This document shows positions 132 through 18,809 of a stretch of DNA of 64,000 bases, in pieces. Where the stretch lies: contig CAMBSD010000001.1 in assembly GCA_945870425.1 (NCBI GenBank), positions 1 through 64,000 of the forward strand, in the 5' to 3' direction. The stretch is from Chitinophaga pinensis. GTDB taxonomy: Bacteria; Bacteroidota; Bacteroidia; UKL13-3. Each line of letters opens with the position of its first letter. Within the stretch, counting starts at the first letter, position 1. The notes beneath the pieces were generated by a model that had not been told where the DNA came from, ran no database searches, and saw only the letters and a program-made list of their open reading frames with translations. The position numbers were made by a program, and so were the translations under genes.

Positions 132-194
132 GTTTTTTTATTTGGTTTAATTGTATGTAATATTTTGAAAAATGAAATAAAAACTGATCTATAA

Positions 195-237: not shown

Positions 238-251
238 AAAGTTTGAAAAAA

Positions 252-1967: not shown

Positions 1968-2007
1968 TTACTGTTTTATTACAGTGTTTGTTTAATTAAT
2001 TTAAAAT

Positions 2008-5000
2008 TTAGAAAGGTCTAATGATTTGAATAATGTTCGCTACATTATTATCTACAATATTTAAATCGACATTATCAATAACAGTATCATTGTTAACATC
2101 AGCTCCTAGATAACCAAATTGATTTTGGTTATTACTGCAATTAGCTAGATCTGAAGCATCACATAAACCATCTTGGTTAATATCACCACTGTAGATTAAA
2201 AATGCACCATTTGCTGACTTAACGTTTGCACCATAAGTATTTGCAGAAGCACATGAGAAACAAACATCAGCAGCTGGAGCTGAAACTATGTTTTTGATGG
2301 TAATAGGGTTTGCACTCCAAGTTTCGATGCTATTTCTATTTGCAAGTGCAACAAAATAAGTTTTACCTAATTCAGAAACTGGTAATTTTACACTTGCAAC
2401 ACCATTACTATTAATTGTAGTTTTGTAAGATTGAACGAATTCATAAGGAGCAGTTGATTTGTATAATTTTACTGTAACTGTATCGCTAATATGAGTCCCA
2501 GTAGCAGCGTCATATGAACCTTCAAAGAATGCTTTGATAGTTAAATTTGCATTTGAAGCTGCAGTAAAGTTAGCATTTGAGTATGAAGAATTAATTGGAT
2601 CAAAATTAGCCCAACCTGAAGTCCAATCAGATGCACCAAAAGCACCTCTGTAGGAAACCGGAGTAATAAAAGTATTGGTAGTCAATTTAGATGAACTGGT
2701 GAAACTAGCACCTGATAATTGAGCAGAACCTGAAGCAGGTATCAATGTTGCCATTGGATTGCTTAAACTAAATCCAGTTAAGCCAACCTGAGCCAATGTA
2801 GTTGTATCATTATTACGAGCAGTAAACCAAGTTCTTAAGGCAGATATGGTGTTTAAAGGAGAGGCAGCACCATCAAGTCTAAAAGGAGCGTTAGTTGCAT
2901 TAGATGCTGTCATGTGAGCAAAGGTATTGTTACGGAATTCTGATGAATCTGAATTTTGTCCAACAGCAGTAGAAAGATCATTTATTAAAAGACCTACACC
3001 CCATCCTGAAAAAACTGAATTAAATAAACTTAATTGAGATCCTCTACGAATACGAACACCTTTACCACCATCACCATTAGTTAATCCATTGTAACCAGAT
3101 GCTAATGTACCGGTGAAATTAGTGCGTGGACCAACAGATGTTATATTTGTAAAAATCGCCTTAGTACGTGGTGTTGTATAATAGGTAGGGAAAACACCAT
3201 TAGCTATGTTATCATTGTTATCAGATTCAAAACTTTCAGAAGTTGAAATTGAAGGATTATCTGCAACTGATGGATCACGCATACTTACACCAAATTGAAC
3301 CGTACCAGAATAACCATTATCAGTATCAAAATCATCATCTAATGTGCGGTATACAATTAAGTTACGGCAATTTACAGTACCGCCAAACCATTCGATTCCA
3401 TCATCACCAGAATAAGAAGTTTGAACGTACTCAACTGTAGTACCATTACCCACACCAGCTAATGTTAATCCATTGGTTTCGTTGTTTGGAGCAAATGCAA
3501 TACCTGAAAATTCAATACGCACGTAACGTAAGATACCTGAGTTATCTGTTGGCACATTACCACCAAACAAACCAGAAGCACCAAATAATCCACCTTCAAC
3601 TTGACCAAATCCAATTGGGAAATTAACTGGAGCACGACCACAAATAATTACACCACCCCAATCGCCTGCAGCTCTTGCACCTGAAGCTTGATCAGAAGTA
3701 AAAACAATAGGTTGAACTGCTGAACCATCAGCAATAATTTTAGCTCCTCTTCTTATGATTAATACCGCTTTGTTAGAATTGTTCTTGATACCTTGAACAA
3801 CAGTACCAGGTTGGATAGTTAAAGTAAAACCTGAGTCAACATTTACTTGACCACTGATTTTCCAAATTTTATCATTAGTCCAGGTAGTGTTTGAAGAAAT
3901 ATTACCAGAAACAGTTTGGGTTGTAGGTTTAATAGATGTATTATAATCGGCATTAATAGGATTAAAACTTGCCCAACCAGCAGTCCAGTCAGTTGAACCG
4001 AAAGCACCTCTATATGATACAGGAGTTAAGAATGAATTAGAAGTTAATTTTGAAGAACTTGTAAAGTTAGCACCTGACAATTGAACTGAACCTGTAGCAG
4101 GAATAACAGTAGCCATAGGATTACTTAAACTAAAACCAGTTAAACCAACTTGAGCCAAAGTAGCTGTATCATTACTACGAGCAGAATACCAAGATCTTAA
4201 GGCAGATATGGTGTTTAAAGGAGAGGCTGCGCCATCAACTCTAAAAGGAGCATTAGTTGCATTAGATGCCGTCATGTGAGCAAAGGTATTGTTACGGAAT
4301 TCTGATGAATCTGAATTTTGTCCAACAGCAGTCGAAAGATCATTTATTAATAGACCTACACCCCATCCTGAAAAAACTGAATTGAATATACTTAATTGAG
4401 ATCCTCTACGAATACGAGCGCCTTTACCACCATCACCATTAGTTAATCCTTGGTAACCTGAAGCTAATGTACCAGTGAAATTAGTACGAGGACCAACAGA
4501 CGTAACATTTGAGAATATCGCTTTAGTACGCGGGGCAGTGTAATAGGTAGGGAAAACGCCATTAGCTATGTTATCATTGTTATCAGACTCAAAACCTTCA
4601 GAAGTTGAAATTGAAGGATTATCCGCCACTGATGGATCACGCATACTTAAAGCAAATTGAACCGTTCCAGAGTAGCCATTATCAGTGTCAAAATCATCAT
4701 CTAATGTACGATATACAATTAAATTACGGCAATTAACTGTACCACCAAACCACTCAATACCATCATCACCAGAATAAGAAGTTTGAACATACTCAACAGT
4801 TGTACCATTACCTACACCTGCCAATGTTAAACCATTGGTTTCGTTGTTTGGAGCAAATGCAATACCTGAAAATTCAATACGCACATAACGTAAGATACCT
4901 GAGTTGTCTGCTGTTACATTACCACCAAACAAACCAGCAGTTCCAAATAAACCACCTTCAACTTGGCCAAATCCAATTGGGAAATTAACTGGAGCACGAC

Positions 5001-5361
5001 CACAAATAATTACACCACCCCAATCGCCAGGAGCTCTTGCACCTGAAGCTTGATCCGAAGTAAAAACGATAGGTTGTGAAGGAGAAGCATTTGCAATAAT
5101 TTGTGCACCTCTTTTAACAATCAACACCGCTTTGTTAAAGTTGTTTTTAATACCTTTAATAATGGTACCAGGTTGGATGGTTAAAGCATAACCACTGTCA
5201 ATGTTAACTTGACCGCTAATAAAATAAACGGTGTCGTTGTAGAGAATTCTGTTTTGATAGTTACCTGCATTTAAGGTACTAGTCGGTGATTGAGCGTTAG
5301 CGATTGTGCCAAATAACACAAATGCGACTAAAGCTGTGATTTGTAAAATTGTTTTTTTCAT
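2008..5361 (-). CDS. Exported beta-helix-like protein with large internal duplication and dockerin-like end
   Basis: 1117 residues with an N-terminal signal peptide (about 1-23). Two near-identical blocks, offset by exactly 454 residues, contain motifs such as ISGQVN.DSG, LTIQPGT, QPIVFTSDQASGAR and YSGDDGIEWFGGTVNCRN, typical of right-handed beta-helix (pectin-lyase-like) exported proteins of Bacteroidota. A beta domain resembling the one in the gene at 252-1967 (RNSIETWSANP is shared in form) follows at about 945-1055. The last 61 residues hold dockerin-like loops (DINQDGLCDASDL, DVNNDTVIDNVDL). A TAnnTTTG element stands about 57 nt before the start. Probably a secreted, calcium-binding surface protein; enzymatic activity cannot be claimed. 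Confidence 0.82.
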   Translation of the reverse strand: MKKTILQITALVAFVLFGTIANAQSPTSTLNAGNYQNRILYNDTVYFISGQVNIDSGYALTIQPGTIIKGIKNNFNKAVLIVKRGAQIIANASPSQPIVFTSDQASGARAPGDWGGVIICGRAPVNFPIGFGQVEGGLFGTAGLFGGNVTADNSGILRYVRIEFSGIAFAPNNETNGLTLAGVGNGTTVEYVQTSYSGDDGIEWFGGTVNCRNLIVYRTLDDDFDTDNGYSGTVQFALSMRDPSVADNPSISTSEGFESDNNDNIANGVFPTYYTAPRTKAIFSNVTSVGPRTNFTGTLASGYQGLTNGDGGKGARIRRGSQLSIFNSVFSGWGVGLLINDLSTAVGQNSDSSEFRNNTFAHMTASNATNAPFRVDGAASPLNTISALRSWYSARSNDTATLAQVGLTGFSLSNPMATVIPATGSVQLSGANFTSSSKLTSNSFLTPVSYRGAFGSTDWTAGWASFNPINADYNTSIKPTTQTVSGNISSNTTWTNDKIWKISGQVNVDSGFTLTIQPGTVVQGIKNNSNKAVLIIRRGAKIIADGSAVQPIVFTSDQASGARAAGDWGGVIICGRAPVNFPIGFGQVEGGLFGASGLFGGNVPTDNSGILRYVRIEFSGIAFAPNNETNGLTLAGVGNGTTVEYVQTSYSGDDGIEWFGGTVNCRNLIVYRTLDDDFDTDNGYSGTVQFGVSMRDPSVADNPSISTSESFESDNNDNIANGVFPTYYTTPRTKAIFTNITSVGPRTNFTGTLASGYNGLTNGDGGKGVRIRRGSQLSLFNSVFSGWGVGLLINDLSTAVGQNSDSSEFRNNTFAHMTASNATNAPFRLDGAASPLNTISALRTWFTARNNDTTTLAQVGLTGFSLSNPMATLIPASGSAQLSGASFTSSSKLTTNTFITPVSYRGAFGASDWTSGWANFDPINSSYSNANFTAASNANLTIKAFFEGSYDAATGTHISDTVTVKLYKSTAPYEFVQSYKTTINSNGVASVKLPVSELGKTYFVALANRNSIETWSANPITIKNIVSAPAADVCFSCASANTYGANVKSANGAFLIYSGDINQDGLCDASDLANCSNNQNQFGYLGADVNNDTVIDNVDLNIVDNNVANIIQIIRPF
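2591..3860. repeat. Intragenic tandem repeat, copy encoding the second block
   Basis: Copy with a constant offset of 1362 bp from the stretch at 3953-5222. Aligned markers at 2591/3953, 2839/4201 and 3621/4983 show no net indel. Differences are scattered single bases, many at third codon positions. It encodes the second beta-helix block of the 1117-residue protein. Confidence 0.9.
3953..5222. repeat. Intragenic tandem repeat, copy encoding the first block
   Basis: Partner of the 2591-3860 copy at a fixed 1362-bp offset (454 codons). It encodes the first beta-helix block. The conserved reading frame and high identity point to a fairly recent duplication or to continuing gene conversion. Confidence 0.9.
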
Positions 5362-5417
5362 TGGAAAAAAGATTTGGGTTGTGTTTTTATTGTTGATTAA
5401 ATTGATTTTTTCGGTTT

Positions 5418-5425
5418 CAAAACTA
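5418..5425 (-). promoter_or_regulatory. Putative -7 element for the minus-strand secretion genes
   Basis: Read on the minus strand this is TAGTTTTG, a match to the Bacteroidota -7 consensus TAnnTTTG, about 57 nt before the ATG at 5361. The -33 TTG is not at the ideal distance (a TTG lies about 15 nt away). Confidence 0.4.
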
Positions 5426-5573
5426 AGTATGTAATCAAAACAAGCCTTTATCTAAACGTCATCAATAGGTTATTAAAATGTTAAGGGAATGATAAGCGAA
5501 AGTTGCCAATGTTATTAAATTGTTAAATCGCAGTTTTTAGGTTTTGCATTACAAGAGTGTAATTACTTATAAA

Positions 5574-5581
5574 TACTTTTG
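5574..5581 (+). promoter_or_regulatory. Putative -7 element for the plus-strand IPT/TIG gene
   Basis: TACTTTTG fits TAnnTTTG and lies 15 nt before the ATG at 5597, giving a very short leader. A TTG at 5544-5546 is 27 nt upstream, longer than usual, so only the -7 part is supported. With the 5418-5425 element it makes this intergenic stretch a divergent promoter region. Confidence 0.4.
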
Positions 5582-5596
5582 TGAAAATTTTAAAAA

Positions 5597-7558
5597 ATGA
5601 AAAAAATATTTACATTCTTAGCAATCATGACATCATTGATGTATGCCAAATCGCAAAATCCAGATTATCAAGTTGTTTTAAAAAACGATGTATTAGTTTC
5701 TCCTAATGTTTTAGAATTTGATTTATATATCAAAAGTATCGGGTCGGTTCCACTAGAATACTCAACCTTTCAAGCTGGAATAAAAATGAACCCACTTTTT
5801 GTAAATGGTGGTTTTCCTGCCATTGAATTGATAGGAAATTCATCAGAAATGTATCAATTGTCAGGTGGTGACACTATAAATGACCAAAGACCCAATAGTG
5901 GTCCAGTAAAAGCTGTTTTTGATACTGTTTATAATACCATAAGAATTATTTCAGGAACAATTGTAGGTGCAGGTAACGGAAAGATAATTAGCACTTCTGG
6001 CGATGGAAATAGAATAGGAAGATTTAGAGTAATTAACACAGAGAATTATGATACACTATTAGCAAAGTTTGAATTCAATTATATTTCAAATGGTTCATAT
6101 AGATCATGGAGAACAACACTATTTGCATACGTAAACAGCACTGGAACAAATATTACCGATCCAAATAAGATTGTTGTTAATGATTCAAAAGTAGTTTATG
6201 TTGAACCAACAAGTATTGCAAGTAATGCATCTGCAACAAACATTCAAACAACTTCCATGACCGTAAACATAGGTAGTAATGGAAATGGACAAAACATTTT
6301 GATACTTGCCAAAAAAGGGTCAAACCCAACCTTTATACCAACGGATGGTGACATTTACAATGCTTCTCCTTCATATAGCAATGCGCAATTACTAACTGAT
6401 AGCAGTAGAGTTGTTTATGAGGGCAAAGGAAATTCATTTGAATTAATAGGCTTGGAAGAATCATCAAAATATTTTTTCGCAGTATTTAATTACAATGGAG
6501 TTGATAGCACCAAGAATTTCCTAAACACATCTTCATTAACCTTTAATGCAACCACAAAATCACCAACCATTAACACACCTATCATTTATTCTTTCCTACC
6601 AATAAAAGGAAATATCGGAACACCTGTAACATTGCGTGGTAATAAACTATTCCCTAATGATTCAGTATTATTTAACTCAAGCAAAATAGCTGTTTCATCA
6701 AATGTTGGTGATTCAATAATTACCATATCTATACCTTCTAATGAATTATCCGGATTTATTAAAGTCTATACCAGTTTTGGTTCTTCATCAACAAATATTC
6801 CATTTACCATATTGCCTAAAATACTGAGTATAAATGAGAATCCTGCTAAAGTAGGAGATACCATCACCATTTCAGGTACAAACTTTGAAGGTGTTGACAC
6901 AGTAATCGTTTCTAATAAACTATTCAAAGTATTACAATCAAACAATACAACAATTAAAGCAATAGTTACTTACAATCCTACTGACGATTTATTATCAGTT
7001 ATTTGTAAAAACGGAACGATTACCACTACGGACAATTTCAGATACAAACCTCAAGCATTTAGTGTTTTTCCATTAATTGGTACAACCAACGACCCTATAA
7101 CAATCAAAGGAATTAATCTTAATAATGTTGATTCTGTATTGATTGGTAATGTTAAAGCAACCATCCTTAACGTATATCCTGATACAAATATTAAAATATC
7201 CATTCCACCTTTTGCAGTTAAATCAAAAGTTTCTGTTTATACAAAAAATGGAGTGGCAACTACTAAAGATAGTTTAAACATTATTTCAGGTTTGAATGAA
7301 TTGAGTTTAAAATCAAATATTATCTCGTACTTCGATATTGAGAATAATCTTACAATCTTATCTGAAAACAACAGATTACTAATTAATCAAGTTGATTTAT
7401 TCGATTTAAAAGGAAGCATACTTTATACAACTAAAGAAGATGAAAAAGGTATAGAAAAAATAACCATTCCAGCTCAAGACACAAATGACCTGAACTTTTT
7501 CGTAATGGTTATAAAAACAAATCAAGGATATTTAGCATTCAAAAAAATAAAACAATAA
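5597..7558 (+). CDS. Exported IPT/TIG-repeat protein with T9SS-type C-terminal domain
   Basis: 653 residues. A signal peptide (about 1-19) precedes a domain related to the repeated beta domain of the minus-strand neighbour (VVLKNDVLVSPNVLEFDLY). Three IPT/TIG immunoglobulin-like repeats follow at about 325-405, 406-485 and 487-565, each opening in the style of I.S..P..G..GT.VT..G. The end (about 575-653) has the make-up of a T9SS sorting domain: VDLFDLKGSILYTT, then FVMVIKTNQGYLAFKKIKQ. It should cross the outer membrane by T9SS and be anchored or released. The TonB receptor starts 19 nt downstream, so the two are probably cotranscribed and may act together in binding and uptake of a polymer or ligand that cannot be named. 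Confidence 0.8.
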   Translation: MKKIFTFLAIMTSLMYAKSQNPDYQVVLKNDVLVSPNVLEFDLYIKSIGSVPLEYSTFQAGIKMNPLFVNGGFPAIELIGNSSEMYQLSGGDTINDQRPNSGPVKAVFDTVYNTIRIISGTIVGAGNGKIISTSGDGNRIGRFRVINTENYDTLLAKFEFNYISNGSYRSWRTTLFAYVNSTGTNITDPNKIVVNDSKVVYVEPTSIASNASATNIQTTSMTVNIGSNGNGQNILILAKKGSNPTFIPTDGDIYNASPSYSNAQLLTDSSRVVYEGKGNSFELIGLEESSKYFFAVFNYNGVDSTKNFLNTSSLTFNATTKSPTINTPIIYSFLPIKGNIGTPVTLRGNKLFPNDSVLFNSSKIAVSSNVGDSIITISIPSNELSGFIKVYTSFGSSSTNIPFTILPKILSINENPAKVGDTITISGTNFEGVDTVIVSNKLFKVLQSNNTTIKAIVTYNPTDDLLSVICKNGTITTTDNFRYKPQAFSVFPLIGTTNDPITIKGINLNNVDSVLIGNVKATILNVYPDTNIKISIPPFAVKSKVSVYTKNGVATTKDSLNIISGLNELSLKSNIISYFDIENNLTILSENNRLLINQVDLFDLKGSILYTTKEDEKGIEKITIPAQDTNDLNFFVMVIKTNQGYLAFKKIKQ

Positions 7559-7577
7559 CACATACTTCAACTAATTT

Positions 7578-10373
7578 ATGATTAAGAAACTTAGTTTAAT
7601 AATGGCAGCGATTAGCTGCCATTTATTTATTTATTCAGCGGTGGCACAAAATGCTACCATCAGTGGCAAAATAAGTGATGGAAAAAATGGAGAAGAAATA
7701 ATAGGTGCGACTATTCGAGTAAAAGGTACAGCTTATGGTGCCATAAGTGATGTAAATGGTAATTACTTGATTAAGGGCATTAAACCTGCAACTTATGATA
7801 TTGAAGTAAGTTATGCAGGTTATAAGGCCCAAAGCAAAAAAGACATTTTATTAAAGCCTAGTGAGAGTAAGGTTTTAAGCTTTTCTATATTACCTGACAC
7901 TAAAGAGTTAAAAGAAGTTGTGATAGCAGCTAAAGTGGACAGACAGACAGCAAGTGGACTACTTTTACAACAAAAAAACTTGGCAAGTATTTCCGATGGT
8001 ATTTCTTCTGAAGCCATAAAAAGATCTCCAGATAGAACTACCGGAGATGCCTTAAAAAGAGTAAGTGGAGTTACCGTACAAGATAACAAATTTGTTGTTG
8101 TACGTGGATTAGCTGATAGGTATAATATTGCTTTAATTAATGGTGTAGACTTACCAACCACAGAGCCAGATAAAAAAGCATTTTCATTTGATATTATTCC
8201 ATCAGCACTAATTGATAATTTAGTTATTTATAAAACGGCATCTCCTGAATTAAGAGCTGATTTTGGAGGCGGAGCTGTCTATGTAACAACTAAAGATATT
8301 CCTGAAAAAAGAATTTTCAATATTAATATTTCAACACAGTATAACTCTTTAACAACATTTAAGCCATACAAAGATTACAATGGCGGTTCACTAGATTTTA
8401 TTGGATTAGATGATGGAACTAGGGCTCTTCCTAAAGGCCTTCCGTCAGAAGAAGATAACTCCAAACCAGTAAATCAAACTACTTTAAAGCAAGTTGAACA
8501 TACCAAACTATTTAAAAACAATTGGGGTGTAAATGAAAATGCTTCACAAACACCTGGCTATGCCATGCAGCTTATGTTTGGTAACAATTTCAAGGTTTTC
8601 AATAAAGAATCAGGAATTATCGCTTCAGTTTCACTCAACAACACACCTAAAACTTATATGATGCAAAGGTATACATATGAAGGATCAGATTTGAGACCTT
8701 TTAGGTCTTATGATGACCAAAGTAGTGAGAAGAATTACCTTACAGGAATCATGCTTAATATGGCAACCAAACTTAACTCTAATAACAAATTATCATTTAA
8801 AAACATATTAAATATCAATGGTGAAGATTTGTTAATTGATAGACATGGTACACAAAATGATGCTGGCGTATTATTATATGAAAAAGCTAGTGCCAGACAG
8901 TTTACAACCAATACTTTTTATAGCGGTCAGTTAAAGTTAGAGAATTACATCCCATCCTTAAAATTAAAGTCTAATGTTACTTTATCTCAAAATAACATTA
9001 GCCGAGAAATGCCAGACCAAAAAAGACTTCTGTATACCTCATCTAATGATACAAACTTCAGTGTAGCTATTCCATTCGGATCACCCAATCCAATTTCGTC
9101 TGGTATAACATCTAATAAATTAAGTGAAGATGGTAATGTAATTGCCATAGACTTATCAAGACAATTTAAACTGATGAATATTCGACCAACGGTTAAGGTT
9201 GGATTTTATAATTCAACAAAAAACAGAACATTTAATAGTAGAGCATTTGGATGGAGTACAGGTAAATTCAATCCTGATTTAGACATACTTCCACCCAACG
9301 CCATTTTTAATGATAGTAACATAAGCAAAGACAGGTACTTCTTAAGTGAAATTACCGGTGGGCAAGACAAGTATACAGCCAATTCATTACTAAGAGCCTA
9401 TTATATCTCATTTGACCATTATTTATTCAAAAGATTCCGTTTAAACTATGGTCTACGTTATGAGAGTTTTAACCAACAATTGATAGCCAGAGAAAAGCCA
9501 TACAATAATACCTATGAAAATTTCTTTCCTATCGCCAATATAACCTATAACATTACTGAAAAAACCAATTTGAGATTCTCTTATTCTCAAACAACCGTAA
9601 GACCTGAATTCAGAGAGATTGCGCCATTCACATTCTACGACTTTATCAATAATTCGTTAACTGTTGGAGATACTGCTCTTAAACCCATCAATATTAAAAA
9701 CTATGATTTACGCTTTGAATATTATCCAAGTGGTGGACAAGTATTTACACTAACATACTTCTATAAAACATTTAACAATGCCATTGAAAATACATTTGAG
9801 TATGGATCGGGAAATAGACTTAGGACATTCAAAAACATCAAAGATGTAAAATGTCAAGGCGTTGAATTAGAATTTAGAGTAAATCCAGGCATTGCCTTAT
9901 CATTTCCAGAAAAACATTGGTCTAGGTATTTAACATTTAGCTGCAATTCATCAATTATTGAATCAGAAGCAGATCTTTCAAATTTAGGAGTTAGCTCTGG
10001 TAGCGATACAAAAAGACCATTACAAGGGCAATCAGGATATTCAATTAATGGAGGTCTATTGATTATGCCACCAAGTAATAAATGGAGTTTAAATGTATTG
10101 TATAACCGTATCGGTCGCAGAATTGGAGATGTTGGAGGAAGAAAAGAACTACATATTTGGGAAGTACCTCGCGACTTAATTGACGCCCAAGTAAGTTATA
10201 CATTCAACAAAAACGTAACTTTGAAATTAACTGCTAGTGATTTATTAAATCAGTATTACATGATGTATAGTGATCTTGATGGAAACGGAACTTATAATGA
10301 AGTTAAAGACATTGTAGTTAACAAAGCGAAGTTTGGAACCACCTTTACCTTTGCCATTGGAATAACGCTTTAA
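7578..10373 (+). CDS. TonB-dependent receptor with carboxypeptidase-regulatory-like N-domain
   Basis: 931 residues. The signal peptide (about 1-23) is followed by a carboxypeptidase-D regulatory-like domain (about 25-110: ATISGKISDGKNGEEIIGAT, then DVNGNYLIKGI). The plug domain (about 130-235) contains GDALKRVSGVTVQDNKFVVV and RGLADRYN, and the rest is a 22-strand-type barrel ending in an aromatic-rich final strand (FGTTFTFAIGITL). It imports a substrate across the outer membrane using TonB/ExbBD energy. The substrate is unknown: this is not a clear SusC, since no SusD gene follows. The gene sits between the IPT/TIG surface protein and a membrane protein. No TonB box is evident. Confidence 0.9.
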   Translation: MIKKLSLIMAAISCHLFIYSAVAQNATISGKISDGKNGEEIIGATIRVKGTAYGAISDVNGNYLIKGIKPATYDIEVSYAGYKAQSKKDILLKPSESKVLSFSILPDTKELKEVVIAAKVDRQTASGLLLQQKNLASISDGISSEAIKRSPDRTTGDALKRVSGVTVQDNKFVVVRGLADRYNIALINGVDLPTTEPDKKAFSFDIIPSALIDNLVIYKTASPELRADFGGGAVYVTTKDIPEKRIFNINISTQYNSLTTFKPYKDYNGGSLDFIGLDDGTRALPKGLPSEEDNSKPVNQTTLKQVEHTKLFKNNWGVNENASQTPGYAMQLMFGNNFKVFNKESGIIASVSLNNTPKTYMMQRYTYEGSDLRPFRSYDDQSSEKNYLTGIMLNMATKLNSNNKLSFKNILNINGEDLLIDRHGTQNDAGVLLYEKASARQFTTNTFYSGQLKLENYIPSLKLKSNVTLSQNNISREMPDQKRLLYTSSNDTNFSVAIPFGSPNPISSGITSNKLSEDGNVIAIDLSRQFKLMNIRPTVKVGFYNSTKNRTFNSRAFGWSTGKFNPDLDILPPNAIFNDSNISKDRYFLSEITGGQDKYTANSLLRAYYISFDHYLFKRFRLNYGLRYESFNQQLIAREKPYNNTYENFFPIANITYNITEKTNLRFSYSQTTVRPEFREIAPFTFYDFINNSLTVGDTALKPINIKNYDLRFEYYPSGGQVFTLTYFYKTFNNAIENTFEYGSGNRLRTFKNIKDVKCQGVELEFRVNPGIALSFPEKHWSRYLTFSCNSSIIESEADLSNLGVSSGSDTKRPLQGQSGYSINGGLLIMPPSNKWSLNVLYNRIGRRIGDVGGRKELHIWEVPRDLIDAQVSYTFNKNVTLKLTASDLLNQYYMMYSDLDGNGTYNEVKDIVVNKAKFGTTFTFAIGITL

Positions 10374-10386
10374 AACAAATATTTTA

Positions 10387-12279
10387 ATGATGAAATTAAT
10401 AAAAAAACCACTACCGCTATGTATGATAGCGGTAGTGTTTTTATTATTAATTATTAGTATAAAAAAAGTTTTCAGTCCTGATATTGGCTTTCATCTTCAT
10501 GCAGGGCAATGGATGTTAGAACATAAGGAAATACTTAAAAGTAATCTATTTACCTATCCCCTGCTTGATAAATTATATATTGATTTACACTGGATTTATC
10601 AAATATGTCTTTATTCAATTTTCAGTATATTTTCTTATAGTGGACTGACTATATTTAACAGTTTTGTTATTCTAACCTCCGTTTTAATTCTTTGGTATGT
10701 AATAAAAAAAGAAAGTCCATATAGAGAATATTTGCTGCCAATCTTCATTCTGCTTTTTGCATTAAGTCAGAGCTTTGAAATAAGGCCGCATGTCTTTTCA
10801 TGGGTATTCTTATCCCTGCAACTTTTACTGATAAAAAAGGTATTAAATAGCAATAAATTATCCCTCTATTTGATTTTTGTAATACAAGTCATTTGGATTA
10901 ATTTTCATAGTTTAGCCATACTTGGACCAATTGTATTTCTTATATATTTTATCGGAGACTACATCGAAACAAAAAAATTTAATAAACAATTAGTTATAAT
11001 TGTTTTTGGTTCTATTTTATCTTGTTTAATCAATCCTTGGTTTATAGATGGCTTACTATTTCCTCTTAAACAGTTTGGATTGATTCAGAATAACAATAAT
11101 TTACAAAATATTTATATTGGAGAGTTCCAATCCCTTTTTAGTGCAAAAAATTTCAAAGAGGATTTACTAAGCTATGGTGGTTTGTTTCCCTTTGCACCAA
11201 GTTTCTACATGTATTTGTTCAACGCATTGGCATTATTTAGTATACCAAATATCATTTCGAAAAAGAAATATACTGAATTATTGTTACTTATAGCATTTAG
11301 TTATATAGGCATTCTTGCAGTAAAGAATTTCGGATTCCAATTTTTTGCAATTGCGCCAATTATAATTAGTAACTTACCTATCCCAACTTTTATTAGAAAC
11401 AAATTCAATATGCAGGTTGGGAAAAAGTCAAGCATTAATTTGGTCACATTAAATAAATTTCTGCAATACTATTTTATTACTATCGGCATTATTAGTGTAT
11501 TATCAATATTCTCGGTCATAAATGGCGGATATTACATTGCTTCAAAACAACCATTTTCATATGGACTGGGCGCAGATAATAATTTATTACCTATTGCACC
11601 TTCACAGTTTATTGCAAATAATAAATTAGATAGCAAATGCATTAATTTTTTAGGCTTTGGAGGACAATTGAGTTTTGAGCTAGATAAGCCTGTATTTGCG
11701 GATGGACGTTTGGAATTAATGGGAGATTTTTTTAATACATACCTCAAATCATTTGAACCTAATATGTTTCCAAAAGTTTGCGATTTTTATCAAGCCAATA
11801 TTGCTGTCTTTCCATATGTAAAAACAGGAATGTATGGCAATTGGTGGATATCTATTCTACAAAATAAACAGGATTGGAAACTTGTTTATTTTGATCAACT
11901 AAGTGTTATTTATGTTAAAAGAAATGACTATCCAAAAGTACCAGAACTAACAGAAGAAAGAGTCATTCATAATGAGTTTATGCATGAATATAGTGAACAA
12001 GAGATTTTCGAAATACTTAATAAAGATACTAAGCAAAACTATTTTTTAGGCTTTGTAAATAGCCTATTTTTCAGCCAACAAAATCAAAATACAAGTGATC
12101 AGAATAAGGCCATTTTCTGTTTTACGTGTGGATTCAATAAAGCTGCTTTGAATTTTTCAGCAAGGGCAATTGATAAAAGTACTGTAAAGTCAAAAATTGT
12201 ATATGAAAATCTATCCCAATATTTTAAAGAAATAGGCAATTTCAATTTATCAAAGAAAATGTTACAAGTAGCCAGATAA
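10387..12279 (+). CDS. Polytopic membrane protein, GT-C glycosyltransferase-like
   Basis: 630 residues with about ten to twelve hydrophobic segments and a soluble C-terminal part (about 400-630). The stretch DIGFHLHAGQWMLEH, followed by a distant FTYPL and LHWIYQ, matches the loop pattern (D.. .HL..G.W...H.. F.Y...... W..Q) seen in GT-C-fold lipid-linked sugar transferases and related membrane proteins. That loop usually holds the catalytic acid, so transfer of a sugar to a periplasmic acceptor is plausible but not proved. The start is ATG at 10387 or 10390, 13 nt after the TonB receptor. A strong terminator-like hairpin lies inside codons 8-17; a later ATG at 10423 inside that hairpin is a less likely start. 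Confidence 0.65.
   Translation: MMKLIKKPLPLCMIAVVFLLLIISIKKVFSPDIGFHLHAGQWMLEHKEILKSNLFTYPLLDKLYIDLHWIYQICLYSIFSIFSYSGLTIFNSFVILTSVLILWYVIKKESPYREYLLPIFILLFALSQSFEIRPHVFSWVFLSLQLLLIKKVLNSNKLSLYLIFVIQVIWINFHSLAILGPIVFLIYFIGDYIETKKFNKQLVIIVFGSILSCLINPWFIDGLLFPLKQFGLIQNNNNLQNIYIGEFQSLFSAKNFKEDLLSYGGLFPFAPSFYMYLFNALALFSIPNIISKKKYTELLLLIAFSYIGILAVKNFGFQFFAIAPIIISNLPIPTFIRNKFNMQVGKKSSINLVTLNKFLQYYFITIGIISVLSIFSVINGGYYIASKQPFSYGLGADNNLLPIAPSQFIANNKLDSKCINFLGFGGQLSFELDKPVFADGRLELMGDFFNTYLKSFEPNMFPKVCDFYQANIAVFPYVKTGMYGNWWISILQNKQDWKLVYFDQLSVIYVKRNDYPKVPELTEERVIHNEFMHEYSEQEIFEILNKDTKQNYFLGFVNSLFFSQQNQNTSDQNKAIFCFTCGFNKAALNFSARAIDKSTVKSKIVYENLSQYFKEIGNFNLSKKMLQVAR
10409..10445 (+). terminator. Intrinsic-terminator-like hairpin inside the start of a coding region
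   Basis: Positions 10409-10420 (CACTACCGCTAT) and 10426-10437 (ATAGCGGTAGTG) pair perfectly over 12 bp with a 5-nt loop and are followed by TTTTTATT. An A-run precedes the stem. It lies 36 nt after the TonB receptor stop but within codons 8-17 of the next gene. It could end most transcripts of the upstream pair or act as an attenuator. Confidence 0.75.
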
Positions 12280-12282
12280 AAA

Positions 12283-12660
12283 ATGAAAACACTTAATCTA
12301 TTGCTGCTTTTCATATTCGTAATGATTATCTCAACTTCATGTCCTAAATAAAAAAATGAATTAGAATCCTAATCCTGTCATAAAAATAGATTCAATAAGT
12401 TTTTCTAGGAACATAAATCCTAAACTTAATAGCAATTGTTCAGACCAAATTGTTATAATGAAATGGGGACTTATGATAATTTAATTGCTCAAGCTAAGCC
12501 ATTAGTAGCAATAGATCTTTCTCAGTCTTTTCACTTTATCAATGAAATTATATAACAAAAATTCATCAAGGTAAAGTGAGCCTATTGGACTCAACTATTA
12601 AACAAATTGGATACAGGATTATGGAGTTGCTTTAATTTATTAGTTATCAAAAAATATAAT
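12283..12660 (+). pseudogene. Decayed lipoprotein gene
   Basis: An ATG at 12283 opens a 22-codon frame that is a complete lipoprotein signal sequence (MKTLNLLLLFIFVMIISTSC), then stops at 12349-12351. Downstream, protein-like stretches continue in different frames: FSRNINPKLNSNCSDQIVIM, then GTYDNLIAQAKPLVAIDLSQ, then IHQGKVSLLDSTIKQIGYRI. This pattern fits a lipoprotein gene broken by several frameshifts. It starts 3 nt after the stop of the membrane protein gene and is otherwise the only content of this 400-nt gap. The original product is not recognisable. Confidence 0.5.
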
Positions 12661-12677
12661 ACTATTACTTAAGCTAC

Positions 12678-13292
12678 TTAATCATCTATTCGCATACTAT
12701 CCAACCATTCATTCATCTCATCAAAGTCTTTAATTCCTGGCTTTTCTTCATTACCTCCTGAAACATTTAGGGCAAAAGGATTATAGGTATCAACAATGTT
12801 TTTTGTGTTATATAGGTCTAAGGGTAAGCCCCAAATGATTAAATTATTTACACAAAGCTCTTTCAAAGTATCTCTATCAAAATCATCTTTCCCTGAACTA
12901 GAAAATAAATGAAAGGCGTGACAAGTAGCCTTATAAGTTTCAATTTCAAAGGATAGGGAATCCATATCAAATTCATCCAAATCAATTTTCTTAATGAGGG
13001 GTATTTGGAAAGTAGATAATTCATCAGGTAGAATTGAATTGAAAATTTCAATAAAATCTACGCTTAACAATTCACTAATATCTTTTATTTCATCAATACT
13101 TTGCTCACCAAACTCAGCCACTATAATGGTGCCACTTGTCCATTCAAAGATTTCTTTTGCCTTAACAGGAGGTATATAACTAACATCATTCGTATCAAAA
13201 CAAAAACCAATATAATCGATTCCAACAGCAGCAGCAAAGCGGGCATCACTCAGGTTGGTTATGTTAGATAATTTAATCTTGCTTGTGTACAT
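12678..13292 (-). CDS. TrpF-like (phosphoribosylanthranilate isomerase family) protein lacking the catalytic Cys
   Basis: 204 residues with the layout of the TrpF (beta/alpha)8 barrel. The start IKLSNITNLSDARFAAAVGI corresponds to the K-I-C-G-I-T start of true TrpF, and NVSGGNEEKPGIKD near the end corresponds to the phosphate-binding SSGVE..PG.KD. The catalytic Cys is replaced by Ser, and the Q-L-H-G strand motif reads EIFN, so normal isomerase activity is doubtful. No other trp genes are nearby. The next gene upstream on the same strand (DUF2480) ends 48 nt away, then pyk. It is probably a repurposed paralogue with an unknown ligand. Confidence 0.65.
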   Translation of the reverse strand: MYTSKIKLSNITNLSDARFAAAVGIDYIGFCFDTNDVSYIPPVKAKEIFEWTSGTIIVAEFGEQSIDEIKDISELLSVDFIEIFNSILPDELSTFQIPLIKKIDLDEFDMDSLSFEIETYKATCHAFHLFSSSGKDDFDRDTLKELCVNNLIIWGLPLDLYNTKNIVDTYNPFALNVSGGNEEKPGIKDFDEMNEWLDSMRIDD

Positions 13293-13339
13293 GGGTATTC
13301 TATTTATCGTTTAGCTGCTTATTGATGATTGACAAGGTT

Positions 13340-13855
13340 CTAATTGGACTTTTTATATATAGGCACATTGCTACAAGCTTCACCATACATAATACTTTTA
13401 ACCAAGGGTAAAAGTTTATTGGTGATTTCAACATACGCACTAACAGGAACATTTTGGTCTGAACAACCCTTTACAATGACCCTTTTATCTCTTAATTCTT
13501 CGGTATTTATATTAGAGATGGCATCATAAAACAAGGTACTTTCTAATGATTGTAAATCACCAAAAACATACCTATTAGCAAAAGGCTGAATAGCCTTTGC
13601 CAATAGCATATAAGCCCAAGTGGGAACTATGGCATCAGTGGAACAAATAAAGGCAATATTTTGACCTTGATATTGGCTCCAATCATGTGTTTTTATGTAT
13701 TCGCGGAAATCTTTTTCCTTTAATATCATTTCTCGAAATAGCAATGACTTTATATCAAACAAAATTCTATGCCCAGGATGATGCAAGGTTTCCAAATCAA
13801 AGGTAACCAAACCACTGTTGAGTACTTTATTCTCTATTTCCAATTGATCTTCCAT
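13340..13855 (-). CDS. DUF2480 family protein
   Basis: 171 residues, the usual size for DUF2480, a Bacteroidota family of unknown function. Recognisable features are VTFDLETLHHPGHRILFDIK, FREYIKTHDWSQYQGQ, STDAIVPTWAYMLLA and VKGCSDQNVPVSAYVE. There is no signal peptide or membrane segment, so it should be cytoplasmic. It starts 8 nt after the pyk stop and is probably cotranscribed with pyruvate kinase. The conserved Cys in KGCSD and the Cys and Asp in CSTDAIVP could be functional residues, but no activity is known to me. Confidence 0.8.
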   Translation of the reverse strand: MEDQLEIENKVLNSGLVTFDLETLHHPGHRILFDIKSLLFREMILKEKDFREYIKTHDWSQYQGQNIAFICSTDAIVPTWAYMLLAKAIQPFANRYVFGDLQSLESTLFYDAISNINTEELRDKRVIVKGCSDQNVPVSAYVEITNKLLPLVKSIMYGEACSNVPIYKKSN

Positions 13856-13863
13856 AAAACAAA

Positions 13864-15324
13864 TTACTTTATTTCACTTATCTTTATTGTATTGGTTCTA
13901 GACCTTTCGATGATGGGCATGCTAGCTGTATTGATTATAATATCACCTGTATGAACATAACCATTAGCAGCAAGTGTATTATTTACATCTTGAATACTAT
14001 CATCTGTGCTTTCAAAACCGCGATATAAAAATCCTCTAACCCCCCAAACCAAACTCAATGTATTTATCAAACGAGGATTTGTAGTGAAGATAAAAATGTT
14101 TGCTTTTGGGCGATATGATGAAAGTCTATAGGCAGAATAGCCTGAAAATGTCATACCCACAATAGCTGTAGCTTTCATATGATCTGAAATTCTAACTGCA
14201 GTAAAACAAATCTCATCAGAAAAGAAGGTACTTGAATTTAAATCAGGTCGTGTGCCTTTAAAATAGGGGGCATTGGTTTTGGTTTCCACTTCAAAAATCG
14301 TCTTACGCATAGCCCTAACAGCCAAATGAGGATAAGCACCTACGGAGGTTTCAGCACTTAACATAACCGCATCAGCACCATCCATAACAGCATTGGCCAC
14401 ATCATTCACTTCAGCCCTGGTTGGAACAGCACTTGTAATCATGCTTTCCATCATTTGCGTTGCAATAATAACGGGTTTAGAAGCTTCAATACACTTTTTA
14501 ACAATCATTTTTTGAATGACAGGAACTTGTTCCATTGGCATTTCAACACCCAAATCGCCACGCGCAACCATAACTCCATCCGTTACCGCAATAATTTTAT
14601 CAATAAATTCAACCGCCTCTGGCTTTTCGATTTTGGCAATCACTCTAGGCTTCCAATCATTCAATTCGATAATATTTTTCAAGAAAATAACATCAGCTTC
14701 CGTGCGCACAAATGAAAGTCCAACCCATTCTACTTTATTTTGAATCCCAAATTTCAAGTCGTCCAAATCTTTTTGGGTCATACTAGGTATCGACAGTTTG
14801 GTATCTGGAAGATTAAATCCTTTTTTATTTGAAAGCCAACCACCCACAATTACCTCAGCTTTAATAATATTCTTTTTGTTTGTTTCGGTAACCCTTAACT
14901 CTAGTTTTCCATCATCTAGAAGGATACGTTCACCTTTAGCAACATCCTTTGGAAGTGAATCAAAGTTTATATAAACCTTATTCGCAGTTCCAACACATTT
15001 TTCGGTGGTAACATCAATTATCTCTCCTTTTATCAACTCAACTTTGCCATTTTCCATTTCGCCAACTCGCAGTTTAGGACCTTGTAAATCCAAAAGCATG
15101 GCGACATTGGTTCCTAAATCTTCATTTAATTGATTAATGGTATCTATGATTTTTTGGTGATCGTCATAGCTTCCATGAGAAAAGTTAAGCCTACATACGT
15201 CTACTCCTTCCTCAAATAATTGTTTTAAATTTTCATAGCTGCTGCAGGCAGGACCCATTGTGGCAACAATTTTAGTTCTGTTGAATTCTTTTCTGATTTT
15301 GGAAATTGATATATTGTCTTTCAT
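13864..15324 (-). CDS. pyk: Pyruvate kinase
   Basis: Catalyses phosphoenolpyruvate + ADP to pyruvate + ATP, the last step of glycolysis. The start RTKIVATMGPACSS, the substrate motifs LRLNFSHG-like (CRLNFSHGSY), DLQGPKLRVG and MVARGDLGVEMP, and IIATQMMESM are all present, followed by the C-terminal allosteric-type domain (about 360-486). The frame is open back to 15390, but the ATG at 15324 (MKDNISISK) gives the normal N-terminus, 486 residues. DUF2480 and the TrpF-like gene follow closely on the same strand. Confidence 0.95.
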   Translation of the reverse strand: MKDNISISKIRKEFNRTKIVATMGPACSSYENLKQLFEEGVDVCRLNFSHGSYDDHQKIIDTINQLNEDLGTNVAMLLDLQGPKLRVGEMENGKVELIKGEIIDVTTEKCVGTANKVYINFDSLPKDVAKGERILLDDGKLELRVTETNKKNIIKAEVIVGGWLSNKKGFNLPDTKLSIPSMTQKDLDDLKFGIQNKVEWVGLSFVRTEADVIFLKNIIELNDWKPRVIAKIEKPEAVEFIDKIIAVTDGVMVARGDLGVEMPMEQVPVIQKMIVKKCIEASKPVIIATQMMESMITSAVPTRAEVNDVANAVMDGADAVMLSAETSVGAYPHLAVRAMRKTIFEVETKTNAPYFKGTRPDLNSSTFFSDEICFTAVRISDHMKATAIVGMTFSGYSAYRLSSYRPKANIFIFTTNPRLINTLSLVWGVRGFLYRGFESTDDSIQDVNNTLAANGYVHTGDIIINTASMPIIERSRTNTIKISEIK

Positions 15325-15558
15325 GTCAAATGATACTTTATCATAACTTGCGTTTAGGTAACAAACCGACCAAGTCAAATGAGGCTGCAAGTTAAGAATT
15401 TATGTACAAGTGACAACGTAAATAATTAATAAATTTAACTTTAAAACACAAAAACAAAAATATAAATGTTTCATAATCAATATTAAAAACGAACCAAATG
15501 ACAAATGGTTTAGAAAATTAATTTCGTTTAATATATTTACGACTTAAATGATAAAAAT

Positions 15559-15981
15559 ATGAAAAAATTCTTCACAATTATTGCTGTAGTTGCAAGCATG
15601 CTTGCATTTACTTCATCAGCTAAAGCTGATGCTTACACAATTGATGACAATGCTGTTGAAGCAGCATTTCAAGCAAGTGTTTCTGCTCCTATTTCTATGG
15701 ATGTAATCAATGCTGCAATTCCTAGTGGTGTTAACAATGAAGCTAAAGTATCTGGTAGTTCAAATGCTGTTGTTGCCTTCGTTTTATGTTGGTTTTTAGG
15801 CACACTAGGAGTTCATCGATTTTACATGGGTACTGCTGTGTTAACAGGAGTTGGCTATATATTAACTATTGGTGGTTGTGGTATTGTAACAACTATTGAT
15901 TGGGTAGTATTACTTATCGCTCTTATTCAAGGTGGTGATGTCAGCAAATATGAAGACAACACAAAATTCTTTATGTGGTAG
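15559..15981 (+). CDS. TM2-domain membrane protein with signal peptide
   Basis: 140 residues. A signal peptide (about 1-23, ending AKA) is followed by a short linker and a TM2 domain (about 70-130). The two hydrophobic segments are AVVAFVLCWFLGTLGVHRFY and GVGYILTIGGCGIVTTIDW, with the diagnostic G..G.HRFY.G and the acidic D of TIDW between or after them. TM2 proteins are small inner-membrane proteins of mostly unknown role. The gene stands alone with a bidirectional terminator right after it. The upstream AT-rich gap presumably carries its promoter, but I saw no exact consensus. Confidence 0.85.
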   Translation: MKKFFTIIAVVASMLAFTSSAKADAYTIDDNAVEAAFQASVSAPISMDVINAAIPSGVNNEAKVSGSSNAVVAFVLCWFLGTLGVHRFYMGTAVLTGVGYILTIGGCGIVTTIDWVVLLIALIQGGDVSKYEDNTKFFMW

Positions 15982-15997
15982 AAAACCACAAACTGAT

Positions 15998-16029
15998 AAA
16001 AAAACCGAACTTAACGTTCGGTTTTTTTT
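15998..16029. terminator. Bidirectional intrinsic terminator
   Basis: ACCGAAC (16004-16010) and GTTCGGT (16016-16022) form a stem with a 5-nt loop, flanked by an A-run on the left and a T-run on the right. It serves the TM2 gene and the convergent minus-strand gene, whose stop codon (16028-16030) overlaps the T-run. Confidence 0.9.
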
Positions 16030-16828
16030 ATGGCATTTCTAAAATAATATTTTTTACATTGGACTTAAAGTCGGAATAAAATTGCTCATTGTAACGCAAA
16101 ACTGCTGTTTCAGCATACCCCATTCCTCCTTCATAAAACATATATCCCACAAAAAACCCAGAAAATAAAGCAGTTGCATAATAGCCGTTAAATAAATTAT
16201 AGGTACCCCAAGATAAACCTGTAAGGATAAGGCTAGCATTTAGTATTCCATGAAGTCGCTCTCCAGCATAAAACTGACCGCTTCCTGGAGCGAAAGTCGA
16301 CAATCTCATAGCGGTTTTAACATTTTTAGCCTTGTATTTTAGTACTATTTCATACAAAGAATCAACATTATAGTTTAATTTCCTTGTTGTTGAAAATTGT
16401 TTAAAAAACTCTTTGGCTTGCATCCAATGCCCATTTTCATTATTTACCAATACCGCTAACTGAAGCACGCCATTCAAACGCTTATCATCTTTAAAAAATG
16501 AAAATAGTTTTTGGAGAGCAAGATCAGATTCAGCGAAATTATTGTTTAAATAATTTATTAATGCAAATTCATAGAGATATGCAAACTTCAAAGAATCACT
16601 CATTGAAAGTTCGTCCATTCGGTACAATGTTTTATAGGCATCTACGAAATTTTTTTGACTTTTATAATTTACATATTTATTAAACAGCAATTGATTTTTA
16701 AGCAGTAAATCTCCATTAGAAAACACCTCATACTCTAACTGTAAAAGGCTTTCAGGGTTTGATGCTTGTTGGGCACTAGTACCTAAAATAGTTGCGTAAA
16801 GCAAGGTGCATATTAACAATAACTTCAT
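16028..16828 (-). CDS. Exported/membrane protein with PGSGQFYAG motif
   Basis: 266 residues. The signal peptide (about 1-19, ending SAQQ) precedes a helical region that looks TPR-like (about 25-160). A short membrane domain with FAPGSGQFYAGERLHGI and two or three hydrophobic segments follows (about 175-240). This P-G-x-G-Q-x-Y motif is common in small Bacteroidota envelope proteins of unknown role. Its first 53 nt overlap the end of the gene upstream, which has the same design (helical region then PGLGKAYAKKPYEG). The two look like diverged paralogues in one operon with the exported YidD-like gene. Confidence 0.7.
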   Translation of the reverse strand: MKLLLICTLLYATILGTSAQQASNPESLLQLEYEVFSNGDLLLKNQLLFNKYVNYKSQKNFVDAYKTLYRMDELSMSDSLKFAYLYEFALINYLNNNFAESDLALQKLFSFFKDDKRLNGVLQLAVLVNNENGHWMQAKEFFKQFSTTRKLNYNVDSLYEIVLKYKAKNVKTAMRLSTFAPGSGQFYAGERLHGILNASLILTGLSWGTYNLFNGYYATALFSGFFVGYMFYEGGMGYAETAVLRYNEQFYSDFKSNVKNIILEMP

Positions 16829-17627
16829 CCTTTATTTTTTTTTTCATCAAACTCGAATATCTGTTGGAAGCTAGGGCACTCCCCCAAATGTTTCCTCCAT
16901 AAAACAACCCGAAGACTGTTCCAAAAAAATAAAACCTACCTGAGTTTAAACCGGCCAATCTGTAATTTTCAAAAGCAATAAACCCAAAAACAGAGGTCTG
17001 CAAAAATCCTGATAAGCCCTCATAGGGTTTCTTTGCATAGGCCTTACCCAATCCCGGAATTATTGCACTCAAGCCACCACCAATAAATGAGGATTTATAT
17101 TTTAATTGCTTAGCCTTGACAGAAATCACTCCCAGATTTTCACAAACAAGACTTAACAAATAAGAATCCTTATTTTTTATCAATCCCAAAACACTATCCG
17201 ATTTGCTTATTTTTTTTTCAAGCATGTAAATTGAAGCATGATAAATATTTTTCAAGTCGTTTATAAGTAAATCGGTGGTATCAATCAAACCTAAAAATTG
17301 TCTAGCACTGTCAAACTCGTTTTTATAAACAAAACAAAATGCCACTTGAAATTTATCCTTTTGGTTCAACTCACCTAATTGATGATAATAAGCGATGCTA
17401 GAATCTATCTTTTTCTCATTAAAATAAATGTCGATTAACTGATGTAGAATAGTTTCTTTTTGTTGAACATCGGCATCTTTTAAGTTCAACTGCAAATAGT
17501 TTTTAGCCTGTCCATTTAGCTTTTCATTAATCAAGTAATTAGCAAAATTAAAGTCATATTTAATTTGGGCAAAGACATTATTTAATATACCCAACCAAAT
17601 CAGCAAAATGATTTTAGTGATGTTCAT
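16776..17627 (-). CDS. Exported/membrane protein with PGLGKAYA motif, paralogue of next gene
   Basis: The frame is open to 17696, but the ATG at 17627 (MNITKIILLIWLGILNNVFA) gives a clean signal peptide and 283 residues. The middle is alpha-helical and TPR-like (pairs such as SIAYYHQLG and DSARQFLGLI). The C-terminal membrane part has IIPGLGKAYAKKPYEGLSGF and further hydrophobic segments. The start overlaps the stop of the YidD-like gene by 14 nt and its end overlaps the start of the following gene by 53 nt, so expression is coupled. Its membership of an envelope complex is inferred from that coupling only. Confidence 0.7.
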   Translation of the reverse strand: MNITKIILLIWLGILNNVFAQIKYDFNFANYLINEKLNGQAKNYLQLNLKDADVQQKETILHQLIDIYFNEKKIDSSIAYYHQLGELNQKDKFQVAFCFVYKNEFDSARQFLGLIDTTDLLINDLKNIYHASIYMLEKKISKSDSVLGLIKNKDSYLLSLVCENLGVISVKAKQLKYKSSFIGGGLSAIIPGLGKAYAKKPYEGLSGFLQTSVFGFIAFENYRLAGLNSGRFYFFGTVFGLFYGGNIWGSALASNRYSSLMKKKIKDEVIVNMHLALRNYFRY

Positions 17628-18072
17628 AGATATATTTGTACTGTGATATAGGGTCAGATACTCTTGGATTGCTAAAATCTGTAATATCAAATGCACTGAT
17701 TCGAGTGCATCTTTGTAATCTATCTGCTGTTAAAAATAAACCTTTAACCAGACCATATTCTTTGATACACTTTTTGCTAAATTCAGAACAAGATGGATTA
17801 TAAATACAACTTGCATTTATTTGGCTAGAAATTACATTTTGATAAACAAATAACAGGCTAGAAAAAGTAAGGTTTATGGGATTAATTTTATGAATGAAGG
17901 ACTTTCTTTGCGATTTGTTTAATGGGGTATAAGCCCTGCCCTTCTTCTTTTTATGGTATGTTTTAATTTCTGCTTTATTCTTTATTAGCCCAATATCACT
18001 ATTTGATAATTGCGCTCTAGTTGATTCACAGTATAATAAAACACAAAACAAAAATAATATTGAAATCCTCAT
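17614..18072 (-). CDS. YidD-like protein with an N-terminal signal peptide
   Basis: 152 residues. The core (about 72-130) has the YidD pattern: FVYQNVISSQINASCIYNPS, then CSEFSKKCIKEYGLVKGL and the basic RLQRCTR. Canonical YidD (here at 55121-55348, 75 residues) aids insertion of membrane proteins and lacks a signal peptide. This one starts [20 protein letters not shown], which looks like a cleaved export signal, and has a basic linker (KKKKGRAY). The conserved Cys pair is kept. It overlaps its neighbours on both sides, in an operon with a possible LolA-like protein and two PGxG membrane proteins. A periplasmic function is inferred. Confidence 0.7.
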   Translation of the reverse strand: MRISILFLFCVLLYCESTRAQLSNSDIGLIKNKAEIKTYHKKKKGRAYTPLNKSQRKSFIHKINPINLTFSSLLFVYQNVISSQINASCIYNPSCSEFSKKCIKEYGLVKGLFLTADRLQRCTRISAFDITDFSNPRVSDPISQYKYIYEHH

Positions 18073-18809
18073 TTGATTAACTTGGCATTTGAAGGAATAA
18101 TAAAATCAAAATAGCTATTATTTGCTTCGTTATTTAACTTGATATTTGAATAGCTTGTCTTCTCTATACTTGAATCACCTTTATCGTTAAAATAAATATT
18201 TGTAATCGTTTCAGGAAAACTCAAGTTATAGAATTTCTTGTAATTATAGTAGTACGACTTCTTGAGCACTTTGGAATTTGGGCCAATGAACTTTATATAA
18301 ACTGGAACATTCTGCTTGAATACCAATTCTACCGATGAGAAATATTTCATATACTCTACTGAAGGAAGCCAATTAGTAATTAGATATTCTTTATCAATTT
18401 TAGATGAGTTAAGTTTAAAACCTAATGCCTTTAGTCCTAAATCATTTGAATTTCCATTCAAGAAATAGTAGATGGAGGAATTTTCGGTACTGTAGGTATA
18501 ATTAAATTTTTGAGCAACCGTATTTTCCTTAGGATTATAAATATTTAAATCCCCCTTGGTATTATTTATAACCACAATATCTACTGGGTGATTAAACTTG
18601 GTAATCATTCTACCACTTTGTTGAAAGTATATTGAAGCTTTAACTTGTGTAAGCTTACCCGCCTCAGTCTTTCTTGTGTCCATATCCATACTTATTTTCT
18701 CTAAAGTATTTTGATGAATATGAAACCCAGAAATCAAAAAAAAGGTTGTAATACCAACCAACCCAATGAGTGATAATATTACAACCTTCTTCATATTATT
18801 ATTTTGCAA
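18069..18809 (-). CDS. Exported protein, possibly LolA-like
   Basis: 246 residues. A hydrophobic N-terminus ([20 protein letters not shown]) acts as a signal or anchor; the ATG at residue 6 is an equally good start. The rest is beta-rich. The segment [19 protein letters not shown], then [14 protein letters not shown], resembles the central strands of LolA/LolB-type lipoprotein carriers, which run from a sugar- or lipid-binding concave sheet. The similarity is by pattern only. It overlaps rny by 11 nt upstream and the YidD-like gene by 4 nt downstream, so all are probably one transcript. Confidence 0.55.

Follow-up and report, generated by a model that had tools for sequence, protein, structure and literature searches.

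In the window, which comprised the whole 64-kb stretch of DNA analysed here, a gene for a TonB-dependent receptor of 931 residues (7578-10373, + strand; Pfam TonB_dep_Rec_b-barrel, Plug and CarbopepD_reg_2) was followed on the same strand, after a gap of 13 nt, by a gene for a polytopic membrane protein of 630 residues (10387-12279) that opened with the doublet ATGATG. Behind it lay the remnant of a small lipoprotein gene (12283-12640, + strand) with a CSxPNC motif and with four TAA and two TAG codons inside. The membrane protein matched no Pfam or NCBIfam family, and its structure predicted from a two-sequence alignment had a mean pLDDT of 33.8 and was unusable. A hairpin was located within the first codons of the membrane-protein gene. 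The two arms of the stem, CACTACCGCTAT (10409-10420) and ATAGCGGTAGTG (10426-10437), formed 12 perfect pairs, six of them G-C, around the 5-nt loop GTATG (10421-10425). The T-rich tract TTTTTATTATTAATT (10438-10452, + strand) began directly 3' of the stem and also supplied the F-L-L-L-I codons of the first membrane helix; hairpin and T-run together covered 10409-10442. The stem corresponded to codons 8-17 of the frame starting at 10387 and lay 22 nt from the first ATG and 35 nt from the receptor's stop codon. An A-rich tract 5' of the stem, ATAAAAAAAC (10399-10408, + strand), was able to pair with the T-run, and by this pairing the helix could be extended to roughly codons 3-22. A G-C-containing stem with a short loop and a U-tract directly 3' of it are features of an intrinsic (Rho-independent) terminator. 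The perfect stem, the loop and the T-run in codons 8-17 had been described in an earlier note on this DNA, as had the coding of part of the first membrane helix, and both descriptions were confirmed; its further statement that the hairpin would block transcripts coming from the receptor gene agreed with the placement of the element.

A pattern scan of positions 1-20000 on both strands returned 19 terminator-like sites, compared with 9.5 ± 2.9 in shuffled sequences, and ranked this hairpin at the top. Its RNA fold had an energy of -25.1 kcal/mol (z = -8.1), and none of 200 shuffles was as good. In a recoding test in which the peptide was held fixed and the codons were drawn by their usage in the sampled genome, none of 10,000 synonymous recodings was as stable as the 81 nt of the window (-27.8), and the same result, 0 of 10,000, was obtained for the hairpin region of the ortholog in L055 described below (-23.3). 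Rare codons made up the stem, namely CTA, CCG and GCG, which account for fractions of 0.11, 0.06 and 0.07 of the codons for their respective amino acids. A 464-kb sample of this genome, consisting of the window and a further 400 kb with 380 mechanically called ORFs, contained 66 strong terminator-like sites. Fifty of them were outside ORFs or at their edges, 12 had a partial overlap with an ORF or overlapped one on the opposite strand, and four were within an ORF on the same strand. These four were the hairpin studied here, a hairpin at 7601-7623, a third in a gene with TTG as its start codon, and a fourth in an ORF whose start was judged miscalled because a typical ATG start came after its hairpin. 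Synonymous shuffles within genes gave an expectation of 2.6 ORF-internal sites per sample with at least 9 pairs and at least 4 G-C, so the count of four was not an excess, but with at least 12 pairs and at least 6 G-C the expectation was 0.1 site per sample, and it was the strength of this hairpin that exceeded chance. The first 75 nt of the membrane-protein gene had the second-lowest folding energy among the 380 ORFs, behind the miscalled one. Other origins of the element were also considered. A dispersed palindrome or mobile repeat was rejected, since the arm ACTACCGCTA occurred three times in the genome, two of these being the arms themselves, against nine times for the reversed control. 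A phage relationship was rejected as well, with weak matches alone (E of at least 0.1, among 20 of 43 records listed). An Rfam scan of the window at the gathering score gave no match at the hairpin; the sole match was a SAM riboswitch at 49692-49800 (- strand), upstream of a homocysteine methyltransferase gene.

Close orthologs of the membrane protein were searched for in 97 related genomes, where only distant relatives were found (some match in 19 of 97), and in 64 genomes of the order (some match in 15, with at most 30% identity outside the own genome). These relatives were too distant to be of use for examining the hairpin, and the best of the order-level matches, L005, had a run of unknown residues as its N-terminal stretch and was uninformative on this point. 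A scan of 84,980 species genomes revealed a single close ortholog, L055, with 79% identity over all 630 residues and the same gene order, the membrane-protein gene being directly 3' of the TonB receptor gene. The hairpin was kept in L055, with a T-run, ATTTTATTATTATTT, that started with A. Synonymous divergence between the two genes was 0.64 (240.4 of 376.5 sites), whereas the non-synonymous value (pN) was far lower, 0.11 (171.6 of 1513.5 sites). Codons 1-25 showed the opposite pattern, with no synonymous difference in 16.2 sites, where 10.3 were expected, and six non-synonymous differences. The stretch free of synonymous differences in this one ortholog pair, the window against L055, extended over codons 1-26 (10387-10464), which corresponds to the reach of the extended hairpin. 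None of 100,000 random draws of 25 codons lacked synonymous differences, and of the 606 windows of this length in the gene, the two that open at codons 1 and 2 were alone in having zero; in the TonB gene, the minimum over 817 such windows was two. Seven pairs of distant homologs of the membrane-protein gene, which shared loci and were thus not independent, served as a control for gene starts. The synonymous values of their first 25 codons and whole genes were 0.14/0.30, 0.27/0.27, 0.34/0.23, 0.28/0.30, 0.96/0.70, 0.06/0.26 and 0.37/0.56. Some starts were quieter, although more weakly than here (L008-L009, 0.14 vs 0.30; L022-L023, 0.06 vs 0.26), and in L006-L007, a pair of similar divergence, the start was not quieter (0.96 vs 0.70).

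The six substitutions that separated the first 78 nt of the two genes were distributed as two in the stem, two at the loop, one at an unpaired position and one in an outer A-U pair. Both stem substitutions led to G-U pairs in the + strand RNA (A20 to G opposite U54, and C28 to U opposite G46), whereas in the - strand RNA the same changes would disrupt pairing. The losses in L055 were the loop-closing pair, which was opened by the two loop changes, and one outer A-U pair. The L055 sequence folded with -23.3 kcal/mol on the + strand and -16.2 kcal/mol on the - strand, and the two informative stem changes mildly favoured an RNA read from the + strand. In the peptide the exchanges were K-R, P-S, M-I, I-L, F-I and I-F, mostly conservative although not beyond random expectation (P = 0.12). 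The absence of a silent change among six had a P of about 0.21, so the 6:0 ratio by itself was no proof of protein-level selection. The hairpin region thus looks to be constrained as a nucleotide sequence rather than as a peptide. The earlier note had named the loss of the stem through silent changes in relatives as the observation that would count against its proposal; in L055, the one close ortholog available, no silent change was found in codons 1-26 and the stem was retained.

The region behind the receptor gene was then compared at 30 TonB loci, comprising that of the window and the best-matching one from each of 29 other genomes, by inspecting 100 nt 3' of each stop codon for a hairpin with at least 9 pairs, at least 4 G-C and a T-rich tail. 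A strong hairpin with a T-run was present 5-35 nt past the stop in 22 of the 30 genes, the window's included, whereas the same search in 100-nt tiles within those TonB genes gave 1 in 844. With its offset of 35 nt, the hairpin of the window was at the edge of this range. The eight genes without a strong hairpin were those of L026, L028, L032, L036, L040, L044, L046 and L050. In L026 (TonB 65% identical in amino acids), the TonB stop was followed after 5 nt by the start of a small lipoprotein gene, whose signal-peptide codons contained a weaker hairpin of 9 pairs, 2 of them G-C, and a T-run. In L027 (64%), a 21-bp hairpin was located behind the TonB stop; no lipoprotein was detected there by tblastn, and the ATG at this place soon met an early stop. 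The place of the hairpin is therefore tied to the TonB gene, whereas the gene that follows differs between loci. The lipoprotein gene was intact in L055, 3' of the membrane-protein gene, and also in L026, directly 3' of the TonB gene. A search for further junctions of a TonB gene, a terminator and a lipoprotein gene, starting from the lipoprotein, gave among 30 loci only the known G008 locus with a TonB gene directly upstream. The order of the TonB and membrane-protein genes was kept in L055, where a typical terminator hairpin, read by eye, closed the series behind the lipoprotein gene, and the inner hairpin therefore need not be the operon end. At least nine of the twelve promoter matches in a scan gave no evidence of function, and sigma-70-type sites were fewer than in shuffles (80 vs 96.5) and were not used as evidence. 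The sequence TACCTTTG at 10346-10353 (TACTTTTG in L055) resembled what we take to be the Bacteroidota -7 motif; no match to an upstream box was found at the right spacing from it.

The hairpin at 7601-7623 was the second terminator-like element of this kind in the window. It had 9 pairs, 5 of them G-C, with the tail TATTTATTTATT, occupied codons 8-16 of the TonB receptor gene 42 nt past the stop of the upstream gene (5597-7558), and was equalled in stability by 57 of 5000 synonymous recodings. It was rejected as proof of a rule, as no strong hairpin was found at the start of the TonB gene in L026 or L027. Elsewhere in the genome, a terminator-like hairpin with G-U pairs (G000:C10:90946-90969) was located 55 nt into a TTG-read gene that resembled an ABC-transporter permease (function by eye), upstream of an own-genome paralog of the membrane protein.

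Taken as a whole, the hairpin is best explained as the intrinsic terminator of the TonB receptor gene itself, probably a partial one, overlapped by the codons for the N-terminal anchor of the next gene; we give this reading a probability of about two in three. The membrane-protein gene, which starts 13 nt past the receptor's stop, would read through the terminator, and the A-tract, the stem and the U-tract would double as codons of its signal anchor. Transcription would mostly end near 10443-10450, so that receptor mRNA is abundant, while the few RNA polymerases that read through would yield small amounts of membrane protein and, in L055, of the lipoprotein encoded 3' of it. Since both species compared have an intact downstream frame (79% identity, pN 0.11), that frame must be expressed at times, from which we infer that termination is partial. 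Termination itself and a role in setting the expression levels are likewise read from sequence features and should be taken as predicted. According to the available text of PMC4824070, a terminator functions well in E. coli when it lies within the first 100 bp of a coding sequence, and its efficiency is about 90% at 28 bp past a stop codon and below 10% at 5 bp. By analogy with this geometry, the hairpin should terminate well and would not be shielded by ribosomes. The terminated receptor mRNAs would carry the AUG of the next gene with no stop codon in that frame. Li et al. reported for such a construct, in the same available text, that upstream expression was halved, which was ascribed to trans-translation (PMC4824070), and a comparable effect at this junction is a prediction by analogy. 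Going further, the terminator may have been taken over as coding sequence, with selection maintaining the hairpin in the RNA and the peptide left to drift between hydrophobic residues; ribosomes stalled on the stopless ORF at the end of the receptor mRNA would call for trans-translation, which could feed back on the receptor mRNA or on the membrane protein. We regard this extension as speculative and rather improbable; if true, the junction would be a natural and conserved case of non-stop by design.

Several other explanations were weighed against a receptor terminator overlapped by the next gene. The earlier note had proposed a translation-linked attenuation. In such a device, the stem would be shielded by ribosomes that start at 10387 or are slow to leave the TonB stop, the polymerase would pass, and transcription of the membrane-protein gene would thereby depend on its own translation. 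The position of the hairpin inside the frame, 22 nt past the AUG, and the conservation of this overlap in L055 would suit such a switch. It was not supported by the E. coli data, as far as the available text of PMC4824070 goes, in which translation reduced the efficiency of a terminator 30 bp past an AUG by only about 10%, and a terminator with a stop codon 28 bp upstream reached about 90%. Moreover, the upstream frame is the receptor gene itself. No leader peptide carrying control codons was apparent, and in the three + frames over 10374-10445 no further complete short ORF starting with ATG spanned the stem; nor did the hairpin correspond to an Rfam element. We consider such a switch improbable, and the same small chance is given to a hairpin that acts on translation or RNA decay without terminating, either by hiding or slowing the start of the membrane protein or by protecting the receptor mRNA at its 3' end once it has been cleaved. 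As a rule, a stable structure near the start of a gene reduces its translation, and the extended A-U pairing reached the start codon region in some folds, but a terminator is the better fit to the U-tract directly 3' of the stem and to the repeated occurrence of such hairpins just past TonB stops.

The gene start could also be wrong, in which case the protein would begin within or behind the hairpin and the latter would be an ordinary terminator between genes. This alternative had been raised in the earlier note, and the part of it that assigns the hairpin to the upstream gene is upheld by the 22 of 30 TonB genes. A wrong start agrees with the lack of any sign of protein-level selection beyond hydrophobicity in codons 1-25 (6 non-synonymous to 0 synonymous changes) and with the distant homologs L012 and L024, where a terminator-like hairpin was seen by eye directly before the ATG. 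Against it, ATGATG at 10387 was identical in L055, and before the conserved PD motif the frame offered no inner starts other than ATG at codon 13 (ATT in L055) and GTG at codon 17, which would cut the first helix, whereas the homologs L006 and L007 had an N-terminal membrane helix of similar length before PD. In several homologs the matches began at residues 2-20. For these reasons the start at 10387/10390 was retained; a wrong start is judged unlikely, and we leave only a very small chance to a protein that begins beyond the stem. Least probable, to the point of being almost negligible, is an origin by chance, in which the choice of codons in a hydrophobic segment made a hairpin without function. 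Strong ORF-internal hairpins do arise randomly, as the expectation at the lower threshold showed, but one of this strength is expected 0.1 times per 464 kb, no recoding was as stable, and L055 had no synonymous change in the hairpin codons.

The arrangement was compared with known systems. Leader-peptide attenuators of the trp and pyrBI type also have an intrinsic terminator that overlaps or adjoins a translated sequence, but in them this sequence is a short leader ORF that precedes the structural gene, whereas the overlapping ORF here is the structural gene itself. In E. coli, the frd operon terminator serves as the attenuator of ampC, and there, too, access to a gene is governed by the terminator of the operon before it; that attenuator lies in the leader, outside the coding sequence, unlike the present one. 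In the ABC importers of Ruminiclostridium cellulolyticum, internal partial terminators behind the genes of substrate-binding proteins set the stoichiometry, as the available text of PMC9045158 describes. There, too, a stem-loop terminator stands behind a highly needed binding or receptor gene and before a membrane-protein gene, and expression is high upstream and low downstream, as is predicted here. Those stem-loops are intergenic, in regions of more than 50 bp as far as the same text goes (PMC9045158), in contrast to the 13-nt gap and the terminator inside the downstream coding sequence in the window. The tR2 terminator examined in E. coli was placed about 20-30 nt past an AUG and a few tens of nt past the upstream stop, and its terminated mRNA would be non-stop, but according to the available text it was an engineered construct (PMC4824070), whereas the present arrangement is natural and conserved. 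RNA 3' ends inside coding sequences, such as are predicted here, have been mapped in E. coli, a few of them with intrinsic-terminator scores; most were Rho-dependent or processed, and in the portion of PMC7815308 that was available none was presented as the conserved terminator of an upstream gene. Our literature searches for a natural terminator overlapping the start of a downstream gene gave nothing direct, an absence that applies within those searches. An internal terminator is of a known kind, and its overlap with the start codons of the next gene seems to be an unusual arrangement of an ordinary device.

To our knowledge, the coupling of transcription and translation has been little studied in Bacteroidota, to which the genome of the window probably belongs, and the junction, if the reading as an overlapped receptor terminator is true, would provide a natural test of terminator function just past a start codon in this group. 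Gene finders and operon callers would fail at such a place, whether they take the terminator as a border or the start codon as proof against a terminator. The junction would further suggest that U-tracts, coding for Phe, Leu and Ile, can be absorbed into N-terminal membrane anchors at little cost.

Other observations were made in the window. The block with the TonB and membrane-protein genes (7848-12642) was 81-82% identical to genome G097, compared with 67-81%, mostly 67-73%, for the other matching parts of 1-40000, and was perhaps exchanged horizontally. In a methionine synthase gene (44936-48082, - strand), a DUF559 nuclease-like domain (residues 446-546) was inserted between two B12-binding domains, and an ORF of the PDDEXK_3 family (48133-48507, - strand), which belongs to the PD-(D/E)XK nuclease superfamily, was located between two methionine synthase pieces.
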